Source of the DNA: Saccharomonospora sp. NB11
Lineage (GTDB): Bacteria; Actinomycetota; Actinomycetes; Mycobacteriales; Pseudonocardiaceae
Reading direction: 5' to 3'
DNA: 64,000 bases
Assembly: GCF_015910535.1 (NCBI RefSeq)
Contig: NZ_JACBJG010000001.1
Span: 186,001 to 250,000 of the forward strand
The notes below the pieces were generated by a model. The model worked only from the letters and a program-made list of their open reading frames with translations, had not been told where the DNA came from and did not search any database. Both the position numbers and the translations under genes were made by a program. Below, one piece after another: positions 214 through 54,938 of the stretch. Each line of letters opens with the position of its first letter. Position 1 is the first letter of the stretch.

Positions 214-1812
214 GTGACTCGAAGACGTCCCACGCAGGCGCTCCGCCTCGTTCTCGTCGCCCTGCTCAGTGCCTTGTCGGTCGTCGTGGTCGCCCCGTCG
301 GCCTCCGCGGCGGTCGAGGAAGGCATCGGGCACCGGACCGAACCGGGACAGTCCTGGGGCGGCCGGGACCGCGCCTACGACTGGCTCGGCTCCTACGTCG
401 TGAACGGCGAGCACGTGTTCTGCGTGTCGTTCGCGCTGAAGGCACCCGACAGCAAAGAGCGGTACGAACCGGGCGACGAGCTGCTGACCAAGTGGGGCGA
501 CCCGCTGCCCGACGACGTCGCCGCCAACATCTCGTACCTGTTGCTGCGTTACGGCGACACCCGGGACGCCGACGAGGCCGCCGCGCTGGCCCACCTCCTG
601 CACTCCTGGACGGCCGCGCCCCGGAGCAAGGCCGACCTCGACCCGGCCAAGCCGTTCACGAAGATCGGCTACGACGTCGAGGGCCACTACGCGAAGCTGC
701 CGGCCTCCGCGCAGCAGGCCGTGGAACGCCTGCGGGCCGACGCCGAGGCCAACCGCGGCCCGTGGACCGTGACGGCCACCGCCCCCGAAGGCGAGCAGTA
801 CCTCGACACCCCGGCCGAGTGGTCCGTGACGGTCACCGGTCCCGAGGGCAAGGGCATCCCGGGTGTGGAGGTGCAGCTGACGCTGACCGACCTCGCCCCG
901 GCAGGCGACCTCGGCGTCGAGGACCGTTCCGACAGCGACACCGAGGCCGATGCCGACACCGTTCCCAGCGCCGCCACCGACCAGGCCGACACCGACGCGG
1001 CCGGAGCCGCGGCGACCGGCGCCGACGAGGCCGAAGCGGGGGTGACCGACGGAAACGACGAGAACGCCGACGACTCCGACGAGACCTCCCCGGCGCAGCA
1101 GCAGCTCACGGTGACCACCGACGAGAACGGCACCGCGCGCATCAGCGCGAGCCCCACGGGCGAGCAGCCGGGCATCGTCGCCACGCTCAGCGCTCCCGCC
1201 GAGCGGCCCTACGTCCGCGACCCCGTCACCGCCGACACCCAGCGCGTGGTGTCGACCGGTGGCGAGCAGACCCTGACCGCCGAGGCGGCCACGAGCGCGG
1301 TGCCGACGCCCGGGATCGTGAAGGTGACGAAGGTGGACGAGGCCACCGGCGAGGGCATCGCCGGGGTTCCGCTGCGGATCACCGGCGAGGACCGAACCTC
1401 TCCGGCTCTGGCCGCCGACGGCACGGAACTCGTGGGCGAGGACGGGAAGCCGTTGGTCGTGACCACCGAGGGCGCCGACGGGGTCGTCACCGTCGAGAAC
1501 CTGCGCACGCCGCAGACCGTGTGTCTGATCGAGGTGTCGCCGCCGAACGGCTACGCCGACGCCTTCGACCCGGACGACCCACCGACGGCGTGCGGTGAGC
1601 TGAACCCGGGCGAGACGCTCGAACTGCGGATCACGAACGTCGCCGACGAGGTACCGCGCACCATTCCCGCGGGTGCGGAACGCACGGTGGCGCAGGCTGC
1701 GACCACCTCGGGTGCGCCGGTCAGCGCCCTGCTCACCCTGGGCGGGCTCGCGTTGGCGGTCGCCGCGCTCGCCGGTTGGCTCGCTCGGAAGCGCATTCTG
1801 CGGCAACGATGA
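214..1812 (+). CDS. Secreted, membrane/wall-anchored surface protein with CnaB-like domain
   Basis: The product is 532 aa from a GTG start. It has a Sec signal peptide (about residues 1-32, ending ASA-A), an N-terminal globular part (40-200), a Ser/Asp/Glu/Ala-rich acidic linker (about 237-295) and a CnaB/SpaA-like beta domain (about 366-480). That domain shows the expected isopeptide trio: Lys in VTKVD, Glu in LIEVSPPNGY and Asn in LRITNV. A hydrophobic segment (about 503-525) and a basic tail RKRILRQR close the chain, as in sortase substrates, but no LPxTG or LAxTG motif is visible; AATTSG is the closest. The stop overlaps the downstream sortase start (ATGA), so that sortase is the likely partner. 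The N-terminal part (Cys in EHVFCVSF, then AHLLHSW) recalls thioester adhesin domains without the Gln. The biological ligand is unknown. Confidence 0.8.
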   Translation: MTRRRPTQALRLVLVALLSALSVVVVAPSASAAVEEGIGHRTEPGQSWGGRDRAYDWLGSYVVNGEHVFCVSFALKAPDSKERYEPGDELLTKWGDPLPDDVAANISYLLLRYGDTRDADEAAALAHLLHSWTAAPRSKADLDPAKPFTKIGYDVEGHYAKLPASAQQAVERLRADAEANRGPWTVTATAPEGEQYLDTPAEWSVTVTGPEGKGIPGVEVQLTLTDLAPAGDLGVEDRSDSDTEADADTVPSAATDQADTDAAGAAATGADEAEAGVTDGNDENADDSDETSPAQQQLTVTTDENGTARISASPTGEQPGIVATLSAPAERPYVRDPVTADTQRVVSTGGEQTLTAEAATSAVPTPGIVKVTKVDEATGEGIAGVPLRITGEDRTSPALAADGTELVGEDGKPLVVTTEGADGVVTVENLRTPQTVCLIEVSPPNGYADAFDPDDPPTACGELNPGETLELRITNVADEVPRTIPAGAERTVAQAATTSGAPVSALLTLGGLALAVAALAGWLARKRILRQR

Positions 1813-51765: not shown

Positions 51766-52692
51766 TCACTCGTCGCACACGCGGGCCCCGGGCACCGGCC
51801 CGTGGGCCACCCGCACCGTGCGGCAGACACCCGCGCCCGCGAGTTCGGCGGCCACCTTGAGGGCGGATTCGCCGTCGGTGCACAGGAACGCACACGTGGG
51901 GCCCGACCCCGAGACCACACCGGCGAGGGCTCCCGCCGACACCCCGGCACGCAACGTCCGACGCAGGCCGGGACGCAACGAGACAGCGGCAGCCTGGAGG
52001 TCGTTGCCGAGCAGCTCCGCCAGGCGTCGCGCGTCCCCGGCCGCCAGCGCCTCCAGCAACGAGTCGGGCGACCCCACCCTCGGCGGGTCCCCGGCGTCAC
52101 GGAGGCGGTCCAGCTCGCCGTAGACCTTCGGGGTCGACAACCCACGCTGGTCGAACGCCAGGACCCAGTGGAACGTGTGGCGCGACAGCACGGGGACGAG
52201 CCGCTCACCGCGTCCGGTGCCCAACGCCGTCCCGCCGTAGAGCGCGAACGGCACGTCGCTGCCCAGCGTGGCGGCGATCTCCGCCAGCTCGTCACGGTGC
52301 AGGTCGAGACCCCACAGCGTCGAGCACGCCAGCAACGTGGCGGCAGCGTCGGCGCTGCCACCCGCCATCCCACCGGCCACAGGAATGCCCTTGCGGATCA
52401 CCACGCGCACCCGCTCGGCCTCGGCGGGCTTGCCGACGTGCTCGGCCAGTGCGCGCACCGCCCGCATCGCCAGGTTGGTGCCGTCGGTGGGCACCGACCT
52501 CGCACCCTCGCCGGAGACCTCGATCCCGGCCTCCGGGGTGGAGAAGACCGTGACCTCGTCGGTCAACGACAAGGCGTGGAACACGGTCGTGAGGTCGTGG
52601 TAGCCGTCCTCCCGCAGGTCACCGACGGACAGATGCAGATTGATCTTCGACGGCACTCGCACGGTGACGGGCGGTGGTACGACGGCAAGCAC
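51766..52692 (-). CDS. ispE: 4-diphosphocytidyl-2-C-methyl-D-erythritol kinase
   Basis: The product is 308 aa, a GHMP kinase. [12 protein letters not shown] is motif 1, [19 protein letters not shown] is the ATP-binding motif 2 and [11 protein letters not shown] is motif 3. It phosphorylates CDP-ME in the MEP isoprenoid pathway. The order rpfB-ksgA-ispE is typical of actinobacteria; here a MetN-like gene is inserted between ksgA and ispE. Confidence 0.95.
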
Positions 52693-52740: not shown

Positions 52741-53748
52741 TCAGGCGGCGACGTCCCGCAGCCCGTACATGGGCGTGCTGAGGTACGCGCCACGCTCCGC
52801 CATCCACGCCAGCGCGGCATCGGCCCGCTGTCCCTCGACGCCGAGGCGGAACCGGGCCACCGGGGTGTCACCGAACCTCGTCAGTCCCCCGCCGATGGTG
52901 GTCAGGTCGACGTCGAACCGCGCCGACGCCTCGGGCAGCAACGCCCCGACGGCAGCGAAACCCACCAGGATCACGTCGACCGCCCGGTCGTACGACGACA
53001 GCAGCGACCGCGGAGTGTCGACCCGGGGCAACAGAGCCTCCGCGATGGGGCTGCCGGGCTTGCCGAGCAGACCGAGCAGGGTGCCCGACTCCACGACCGT
53101 GCCGCGGTCGAGCAGCGCGACCTCGTCGCACACCCGGCGGGCGATGTCGGCCTCCCGCGACGTGACGATCACCGTGGCACCCAGCTCGGAGCGGGCGCGG
53201 TCGAGCACTGCCAGGACGGCGGGCGTCTCTTCGCCGCTCACCCCGTCGATCGGGTCGTCGGCCAGCAACACGGACGGTTCCGTCGCCAACGCCCTCGCGA
53301 TCGCGACCCGACGCTGCTGGCCCGGCGTCAGTTCCGACGGCAACCGGGCACCCGAACGCGAAAGCCCGATGACGTCGAGCAGGGTGCCGACCCGGTGACG
53401 CCGCCGGTCGGCCTCCACGCCCATGCGCTCCAGCGGGGCGGCGATGTTGCCCGCCACGGTTCGCTCGGGCCGCAGCGCCGACTCCACCACCGCGACCTGT
53501 CGCTGCGCGCCCCACAGCCTGCGACCCGCCAACCGGCTGGTGTCCATGCCGTCGTACCGCACCGTGCCCCGATCCGGCCGCTCCCGCAGCGCCACGCACC
53601 GCGCCAGCGTCGTCTTGCCCGCCTCCTTCGGCCCGATCAGGCCGAACAGCGACCCCGCGCTGACGGCGAGGTTGACCTCTCGCAACGCGACCACGGGGGC
53701 GTGAGCGGAGGGGAACGACTTGCTGACGTTCTCGACAGTGATCACCAC
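52741..53748 (-). CDS. Orphan MetN-like ABC ATPase with NIL domain, motifs degenerate
   Basis: The product is 335 aa. An ABC ATPase domain (1-230) plus a C-terminal NIL domain (about 255-335) is the layout of the methionine importer ATPase MetN. Walker A is GPKEAGKT (39-46), still GxxxxGKT. However, the signature is LTPGQQ in place of LSGGQ, Walker B ends ADDP so Asp165 replaces the catalytic Glu, and the switch His is missing (TSREAD at 196-201). No permease (metI) or binding protein (metQ) gene is near. A SAM riboswitch precedes it, supporting methionine-linked control. It could be a regulator that binds ATP and methionine but hydrolyses poorly. Confidence 0.8.
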   Translation of the reverse strand: MVITVENVSKSFPSAHAPVVALREVNLAVSAGSLFGLIGPKEAGKTTLARCVALRERPDRGTVRYDGMDTSRLAGRRLWGAQRQVAVVESALRPERTVAGNIAAPLERMGVEADRRRHRVGTLLDVIGLSRSGARLPSELTPGQQRRVAIARALATEPSVLLADDPIDGVSGEETPAVLAVLDRARSELGATVIVTSREADIARRVCDEVALLDRGTVVESGTLLGLLGKPGSPIAEALLPRVDTPRSLLSSYDRAVDVILVGFAAVGALLPEASARFDVDLTTIGGGLTRFGDTPVARFRLGVEGQRADAALAWMAERGAYLSTPMYGLRDVAA

Positions 53749-53939
53749 AAGCTCCAGGCAGCTCGAAACCGGGCGTCCGCGTGGGACGTCCTCGAAGACG
53801 AAAGAAAGAAGAGAACCGACGTAGGGCGGGAAAAGGCCTCAGCGAGCCATGACGTGGCTACAACAAGCGCACACGGTGCGACGGCCCTGGTCGACTACTC
53901 GGCGCTGCGTCAGGAGCGGCGTGCGATACACGGAGATCC

Positions 53940-54025
53940 TCCATCGGTCCTGGCGTTAGCACCTTCCCCTCAGGGGCGGTTGCTGCGACGTCTCTGAGCC
54001 AGGTCTCTCGGTCGCTCGGGATGGA
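53940..54025 (-). ncRNA. SAM riboswitch aptamer (SAM-I/SAM-IV clan)
   Basis: On the minus strand the outer stem P1 is UCCAUC/GAUGGA. Stem P2 (GCGAC with GUCGC) encloses CCGAGAGACCUGGCUC, and the S-box core GCAACC...AAGGUGCUAACGCC forms P3 around CCCC-UGA-GGGG. The P2 loop CCUGGC pairs with GCCAGG after P3, the expected pseudoknot. P4 is absent, as in SAM-IV-like variants. The aptamer starts about 190 nt upstream of the MetN-like gene. The remaining 332-bp gap holds the expression platform, including a pyrimidine-rich stretch near 53790-53830. Confidence 0.85.
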
Positions 54026-54080
54026 TGCGCCCACAGTACATCCGAGCGATCCCGCCGTTGGCAAGCAAGCCGGGTTGAGA

Positions 54081-54938
54081 TCACACTTTCGCCGCAGCGG
54101 CCACGACCTCGGCGAACTGCTCGACGGTCAGTCGCTCGCCTCGCGTGGCGGGGTCGATGCCGGCGGCCGTCAGCACCGACGCGGCGCGCTCCCCGGAGCC
54201 CGCCCAGGAGGCCAACGCCGCCCGCAGTGTCTTGCGCCGCTGCGCGAATGCCGCGTCGATCGCCGTGAACACGGCGTCGCGATCAGCTCCCTCCGGCGGA
54301 GCCGTGCGTTCGAACGCGACCAACGAGGAGTCGACGTTGGGCACCGGCCAGAAGACCGACCGGGACACGGAGGCGACCTTGCGCGCCCGCCCGTACCAGG
54401 CGAGCTTCACGCTCGGAACGCCGTAGATGCGGCTACCGGGTTCGGCGGCCATGCGGTCGGCCACCTCGGTCTGCACCATCACGAGGGCACGCCGCAGCGA
54501 CGGCAGTTCGGCCAACAGGTGCAGTACGACCGGCACCGCCACGTTGTAGGGCAGGTTGGCCACCAACGCCGTGGGTTCGACGGGCAGCTCGTCCGCGCGC
54601 AGCCGCAGCGCGTCGCGTTCGAGGACGTCGAGTCGAGCGGCGGCCTCGGGTGCGTGCTCGGCCACCGTGGTGGGCAACCGTCCCGCGAGGACCGGATCGA
54701 TCTCCACGGCCGACACACGCGCACCGGCGGCCAGCAGACCGAGAGTGAGGGAACCGAGGCCGGGACCGACCTCCAGGACCGGCTCGTCGCCCCTCACGTC
54801 GGCGAGTTCGACGATCCGGCGCACGGTGTTGGCGTCGTGCACGAAGTTCTGGCCGAGCTTCTTCGTCGGCCGCACTCCCAGCGCGGTGGCCAACCGACGG
54901 ATCTCGGAAGCTCCCAGCAGGCCCGGTGTCTCGGTCAC
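54081..54938 (-). CDS. ksgA: 16S rRNA dimethyladenosine transferase
   Basis: The product is 285 aa. It shows [18 protein letters not shown], the SAM-binding motif [17 protein letters not shown], acidic loop EIDP, the catalytic NLPYNVA and the C-terminal [15 protein letters not shown]. It dimethylates two adjacent adenines at the 3' end of 16S rRNA. It lies 42 bp after rpfB on the same strand. Confidence 0.96.

Follow-up and report, generated by a model that had tools for sequence, protein, structure and literature searches.

Riboswitches that gate an upstream open reading frame (uORF) are already known for B12 and Mg2+. In Mycobacterium tuberculosis, a B12 riboswitch and a uORF are found before ppe2 (and metE). 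According to PMC11260477, the ppe2 riboswitch controls a translated uORF, and expression of the main gene depends on this uORF. The M. tuberculosis Mbox controls the uORF rv1805A with Rho termination, and PMC12810186 describes a conserved uORF under direct aptamer control via a translational platform. Cysteine leader peptides of Actinobacteria are short ORFs with Cys codons near the stop, which are located before sulfur genes and have no conserved terminator (PMC1262725). Cysteine-responsive uORFs in mycobacteria are cited in PMC9031893 and PMC13236596. In Streptomyces lividans, a leader peptide containing Cys, metL, precedes the metNIQ operon (PMC8079986). In Bacillota, SAM riboswitches with tandem aptamers control metN-metI-metQ (PMC12452182).

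Control by metabolite riboswitches and control by leader peptides that the ribosome reads are usually studied apart. At the locus described here they are joined in an arrangement that is kept across a bacterial family: a SAM aptamer, a leader peptide and a degenerate MetN are combined. The locus lies in a window of 64,000 nucleotides (the whole stretch of DNA analysed) from a genome of 4.3 Mb in 29 contigs. The order on the minus strand is ksgA, SAM aptamer, short ORF, a gene encoding an ABC ATPase with a NIL domain (52741..53748), and ispE. The two neighbours are open reading frames which we take to be ksgA (rsmA; 54081..54938, matched in 67 of 70 related loci) and ispE (51766..52692, matched in relatives); the ispE start is 48 nt past the stop codon of the ABC gene. 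For comparison, 70 orthologous loci of one family, probably Pseudonocardiaceae, were collected from 70 of 200 genomes searched, selected by protein similarity and not by leader. They consist of the 30 best matches and 40 hand-picked for genus spread among the matches listed; the genera g3, g5, g12, g37, and g42, with best E-values above about 1e-50, lie outside the set. Matches from a further collection of genome contigs were distant ABC proteins (10 loci, 34% identity at best). Some counts rest on 61 loci and others on all 70.

A SAM-type aptamer had been proposed from the sequence-only reading, with an Rfam search as the check. The search agrees: RF00162 (SAM-I, or S-box) matches full length at 53938..54027 on the minus strand with 63.3 bits (gathering score 44.4; E = 2.3e-12), the highest of three RNA-family matches in the window. 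RF00162 also scores above gathering in all 70 family loci scanned. Directly before the aptamer, and separate from ksgA, the element TTGC...TGTACT (54035..54064, minus strand, read from the sequence) is likely to be an aptamer-proximal promoter. As raw counts over the 70 loci, 57 have CTTGC in the 60 nt before the aptamer, 62 have TACT in the final 25 nt, and 53 have both. A second SAM-I riboswitch of the genome (G000:C25:127066-127199, L001) is found before what is presumably a threonine synthase gene. There the end of P1 overlaps with the main-gene Shine-Dalgarno sequence, without an intervening uORF.

What the sequence-only reading overlooked is a uORF inside the supposed untranslated leader. 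It has 30 codons (53839..53931, minus strand) and encodes MYRTPLLTQRRVVDQGRRTVCACCSHVMAR. Its Shine-Dalgarno sequence, GGAGG (53938..53942, minus strand), lies in the aptamer alignment within the 3' strand of P1 (GATGGAGG), and this strand starts with GATGGAG in 70 of 70 loci. The uORF start codon, taken as the most upstream in-frame start, is 1-11 nt past the aptamer in every locus. All 70 loci encode the core LTxRRVVDxxRRTxxxC. Its Arg3, Asp7, Arg11, and Cys16 are invariant; note that all four are part of the search pattern, which no locus failed. Synonymous variation is found at most uORF codons. Over 52 distinct cores, pN/pS is 0.30 in frame versus 1.8 and 2.4 out of frame, indicating that the reading frame is under coding selection. 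Cys16, nine residues past the invariant Asp (53863..53865, minus strand), is encoded by UGU in 70/70 loci. Background Cys codons in four genes of these loci are TGC 351 times and TGT 34 times (34/385, 9% UGU). With UGU invariant here and UGC the codon of about nine Cys in ten in the genes nearby, codon-specific pausing is directly testable. The residue after the locked Cys is Arg in 46, Cys in 12, and another in 3 of 61 loci; the uORF of the window has CACC. By comparison across the family, then, the aptamer, the Shine-Dalgarno sequence in P1, the coding uORF, and the codon lock are all constant parts of this leader.

The leader resembles the known systems in part. As in a relay of the ppe2 type, the start signal of the uORF lies inside the aptamer-controlled helix. 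While the ppe2 system uses B12 and a tight stop-start overlap (PMC11260477), here the ligand would be SAM and 60-227 nt separate the uORF stop from the ABC gene (61 loci). Dependence of the ABC gene on uORF translation, as at ppe2, is plausible from pairing predicted in silico. The likeness to Mbox/rv1805A is in the conserved uORF; the Mbox senses Mg2+ and has another target operon (PMC12810186). The cysteine leader peptides have runs of Cys codons and are leaderless in mycobacteria (PMC1262725), whereas here the conserved core, downstream of a SAM aptamer, has a single locked UGU. The metL peptide of S. lividans is different and leaderless, and the SAM riboswitch there precedes threonine genes (PMC8079986). 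In PMC12452182, on tandem aptamers in Bacillota, the term uORF is absent, and its passages on these riboswitches mention no orphan metN; passages of this paper and of PMC3766115 hold nothing further on a SAM-controlled uORF, an orphan MetN, or the peptide core. Among the matches listed, which are mostly outside subscription journals, no title or abstract opening describes this peptide core, an orphan MetN under riboswitch control, or a uORF regulated by a SAM riboswitch.

The sequence itself, with the Shine-Dalgarno sequence of the uORF inside P1, implies that P1 sequesters the uORF start, and SAM gating of the uORF is likely. The direct target of this translational SAM-I riboswitch would be the short conserved leader ORF, not the main gene. 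With SAM bound, P1 would form and hide the uORF Shine-Dalgarno sequence. The 5' end of the untranslated uORF would then be free to pair with the ABC-gene Shine-Dalgarno sequence, and the C-rich RNA past the uORF, bare of ribosomes, may be open to Rho, so that the gene would be off. When SAM is low, translation of the uORF would break the pairing and the ABC gene would be read.

Folding predictions bear on the second half of this scheme. The ABC gene has the Shine-Dalgarno sequence GGAGC (53751..53755, minus strand) and probably starts at the second GTG (53745) and not at 53748; GTG-ATC is conserved in relatives. This Shine-Dalgarno sequence is mostly paired in prediction (mean 0.77, 61 loci). 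Its partner is often the initial part of the uORF, and in the window it is predicted to be GCUCC at 53913..53917 (minus strand). Pairing was compared between cognate and swapped sequences in 48 less-similar loci, the set used for the duplex, helix, and masking tests; the two swap tests ignore kinship. Cognate duplexes of the uORF 5' end and the gene's Shine-Dalgarno sequence beat swapped ones (z = -3.25, p = 0.001 for window 0-40; z = -2.73 for 20-60). No clear difference is found in windows spanning 40-100, and none at 140-180. In windows spanning 80-160, cognate pairing is weaker than swapped (z = +1.7, then, over the linker, +3.4 at 100-140 and +2.8 at 120-160); the later windows rest on fewer loci (47, 40, 23, and 11). 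Support is weaker in a stricter test of contiguous helices: window 0-45 has z = 2.29 and p = 0.019, while p is 0.23 at 20-65 and 0.049 at 45-90.

In the same 48 loci, predicted accessibility of the gene's Shine-Dalgarno sequence rises from 0.22 to 0.28 on masking the uORF start (p = 0.004) and from 0.22 to 0.33 on masking the whole uORF (p = 0.006); a 48-nt mask of the uORF 5' part gives p = 0.09, and a mask of the linker brings no rise. Locus by locus, masking the whole uORF increases accessibility in 25/48 and lowers it by more than 0.1 in 10/48. Past the uORF stop, a pyrimidine-rich tract with more C than G (53789..53838, minus strand) has the composition of a Rho site. Over 61 loci, the 50 nt past the stop have a mean pyrimidine content of 0.66 and C-G of +0.21, versus 0.53 and 0.02 in the uORF. 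Against the scheme, the leader of the window is less stably folded than all 100 of its shuffles (z = +2.59). Overall, these predictions hint at Shine-Dalgarno pairing and at an involvement of Rho, and they make release of the Shine-Dalgarno sequence by uORF translation plausible.

A second input, either cysteine supply or a nascent-chain pause, probably comes in through the peptide core and its locked UGU codon. That the input is cysteine is a guess from resemblance to leader ORFs elsewhere in the order. With a profile of the uORF, 150 genomes of the order were searched (up to 55 candidates scored per genome). E-values below 1e-8 were obtained in 17 of 19 genomes of the own family and in none of the 131 others, where the best match had 4.9e-8. 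The best E-values in the other two genomes of the family were 7.7e-6 and 1.4e-4, which shows that some true members escape the profile. In the genome of the window, only the site at 53931-53839 is clear (E = 6e-14). A second match (E = 0.056) was rejected; it covers 12 of 28 profile positions and lies opposite an apparent long coding frame.

The related short ORFs that were read number 13, one of them in the same genome. Ten have a Cys nine residues past the Asp, encoded by UGU in every case, and three do not. The one in the same genome (L089; G000:C23, match 1501-1563, minus strand; E = 0.059) reads ...LLTKRRAVDLCRVRSSLCPTS..., has a UGU Cys, and stands just before another gene; it is counted as a relative by motif. 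The beginning of the gene that follows it resembles those of the genes behind L116, L122, and L123; these genes are presumably DUF4395-like. Two others, L119 (...RVIDHGRMTTSR, then stop) and L121 (...RVVDHGRMTTSR, then stop), end before the Cys position, and the gene after L119 looks like one for a symporter. None of the 11 loci with related uORFs that were scanned reaches the gathering score of RF00162. In the sample, then, the composite of aptamer and uORF looks particular to the family, while its peptide is one of a broader set.

These related uORFs, found in other families without a SAM aptamer, favour a classical cysteine attenuator, in which stalling at the Cys codons alone would open the gene and SAM sensing would be secondary. 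Cysteine attenuators have also been published for mycobacteria, reportedly by Canestrari in 2020. Several findings stand against this reading. In simulation, a ribosome stalled at Cys16 leaves the accessibility of the gene's Shine-Dalgarno sequence at 0.24 versus 0.22, or at 0.23 with one queued ribosome, and neither change is significant. Since the simulated stall gives no release, the cysteine step is without a computed mechanism. A second Cys follows the locked one in only 12 of 61 loci, and the uORF Shine-Dalgarno sequence is kept in P1 in 70/70. We regard the attenuator as unlikely, and gating of the uORF by SAM, with cysteine as a possible added input, is preferred. Pairing of the Cys region with the gene's Shine-Dalgarno sequence was also considered and set aside: neither the energy test (40-80 and 60-100) nor the stall simulation supports it, and the helix test is marginal (45-90, p = 0.049).

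The ABC gene encodes a protein with the ABC and NIL architecture of MetN (PF00005, 84.5 bits; PF09383, 29.0 bits versus a cut-off of 24; 52741-53748, minus strand). Its best sequence match in the PDB is MetN of MetNI (3dhw chain C, E = 3e-48, residues 3-320). Against the MetN model TIGR02314 it scores 170.4 bits, below the cut-off of 499.7, a strict one that no match in this genome reaches, the intact MetN (352.6 bits) included. Walker A is kept (GPKEAGKTT). LTPGQ stands for the signature LSGGQ, LLADDP for LLADEP, and TSR for the switch TH, in agreement with the loss of the ABC signature, the Walker B Glu, and the switch His noted in the sequence-only reading; the Q-loop Gln, unlisted there, is lost as well. 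The absence of permease and binding-protein genes alongside is also borne out, metI and metQ not being found in the 1.5 kb behind the gene. In contrast to MetN of MetNI, this protein therefore has neither the catalytic motifs nor a MetI partner at its locus.

A search for metI over the 1.5 kb past the gene (less at contig ends) found it in 19 of the 70 loci, with metQ matched in 18 of those. All 19 genes with metI have the Q-loop Gln, LSGGQ, Walker B Glu, and switch His intact. The 51 genes without it all keep Walker A GK[ST], but only 1 still has LSGGQ, 10 the Walker B Glu, 2 the switch His, and 1 the Gln. Across the family, motif loss is thus tied to metI loss. One metI-less exception, L053, keeps Glu and His. 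Another, L057 (G022), is an orphan metN with all motifs intact and metI elsewhere in its genome; the loss may be recent, or the two may still work as a pair in trans. The sequence-only reading had counted relatives with intact motifs beside metI and metQ as evidence against its case. Such relatives exist (the 19 above), and what they reveal is the origin of the gene; the case for a motif-degenerate orphan stands, and the degeneration is old. We infer that the gene is the former metN of a riboswitch-controlled metNIQ operon from which metI and metQ have since been lost.

On the maximum-likelihood tree, the orphan label must have changed three times or more, the simplest account being three losses, although this direction is our reading of the tree. 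A clade of 47 orphans has support 84/80, and 46 of them 99/85. A separate pair of orphans, L073 and L084 (100/100), lies inside a clade of intact genes (98/99) and is also without Gln, signature, and His. Of the inner branches, 12/68 are open, and several orphan branches are long. The degenerate proteins are nonetheless constrained. Among 15 orphan pairs, some sharing members, dN/dS is 0.06-0.28, near the 0.10-0.25 of KsgA in the same pairs; five pairs of intact metN give 0.06-0.17. Comparison thus places the orphan metN under purifying selection, and the earlier view of a gene that is intact and not simply decaying holds.

This selection bears on the possibility that the gene is a relic whose main use is to supply ispE with a promoter and a regulated leader. 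With ispE only 48 nt past the stop codon, the two could be co-transcribed. Purifying selection on the amino acids, at the level of KsgA, and an ORF kept through several origins of the orphan state argue against it, and we consider a mere leader function quite improbable.

An orphan could also still be a transporter ATPase that works with the MetQ-MetI encoded elsewhere in the genome or with some other permease. Walker A is kept, and the genome has a metQ-metN-metI cluster elsewhere (G000:C21; metN by the 352.6-bit match, metQ and metI named by sequence reading). Using the MetI of this cluster as query, 43 genomes were searched: 29 from the 51 with a metI-less locus and 14 from the 19 with a metI-bearing one. 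MetI was found in 14/14 genomes with intact operons, always beside the riboswitch metN, and in 12/29 orphan genomes (this one and 11 others). In 17/29 orphan genomes searched, no MetI was found at E <= 1e-10; the MetI of the intact operons has 31-42% identity to the query, and a MetI that has diverged even further might escape the search. These 17 genomes make a trans MetI partner unlikely as a general explanation. Further, the signature, Glu, Gln, and His are lost in most of the 51 metI-less loci, and the separate system of this genome has its own intact MetN. A continuing role in transport is therefore very doubtful, and the trans-acting ATPase suggested in the sequence-only reading loses ground for the same reasons, the missing MetI and the lost hydrolysis motifs.

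A MetN without partners and catalytic motifs, yet kept by evolution, suggests that the protein has turned into something other than a transporter part. The orphan keeps Walker A, the Walker B Asp, and NIL, and the residues for ATP hydrolysis are gone; NIL is detected at E <= 0.01 in 27 of 28 members (20 metI-less, 8 with metI). From these motifs it is most likely a regulator that binds nucleotide and methionine, not a transporter motor, although the NIL score of only 29 bits counts against this. Of the two roles suggested in the sequence-only reading, the regulator is thus the one we prefer. The orphan and its intact and degenerate relatives at the same locus form a natural series on the fate of a transporter motor after loss of its channel.

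For the locus as a whole, we favour, with somewhat better than even confidence, a SAM-gated uORF whose translation opens metN, the product being a non-hydrolysing ATP- and methionine-binding regulator. A bolder form is held more tentatively and is rather less probable than its negation. In it, the SAM aptamer would gate the leader ORF; the RRxVD-x8-Cys(UGU) peptide would then sense cysteine or pause the ribosome; MetN would have become, independently and in several lineages, a catalytically dead ATP/methionine sensor; and the UGU-locked core would be a new family of arrest peptides or codon-specific pausing across Actinobacteria. The least credible alternative is an ordinary translational riboswitch in which the aptamer alone controls the ABC gene and the uORF is a chance or inert by-product of a Shine-Dalgarno sequence in P1: masking near P1 is a common translational design, and the genome's other aptamer follows it without a uORF, but the core and codon lock in 70/70 loci, the coding selection, the related peptides elsewhere, and the position of the gene's own GGAG, 148-384 nt beyond P1, speak against it.

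The length of the uORF ahead of the core varies among relatives. In L024 and L026, a second LTRQRR-like stretch ahead of the core lengthens the uORF. In L073, a repeat-like AQL/AQS stretch that leaves the frame open has expanded the part ahead of the core to nearly 90 codons, and L084 has the same uORF offsets.
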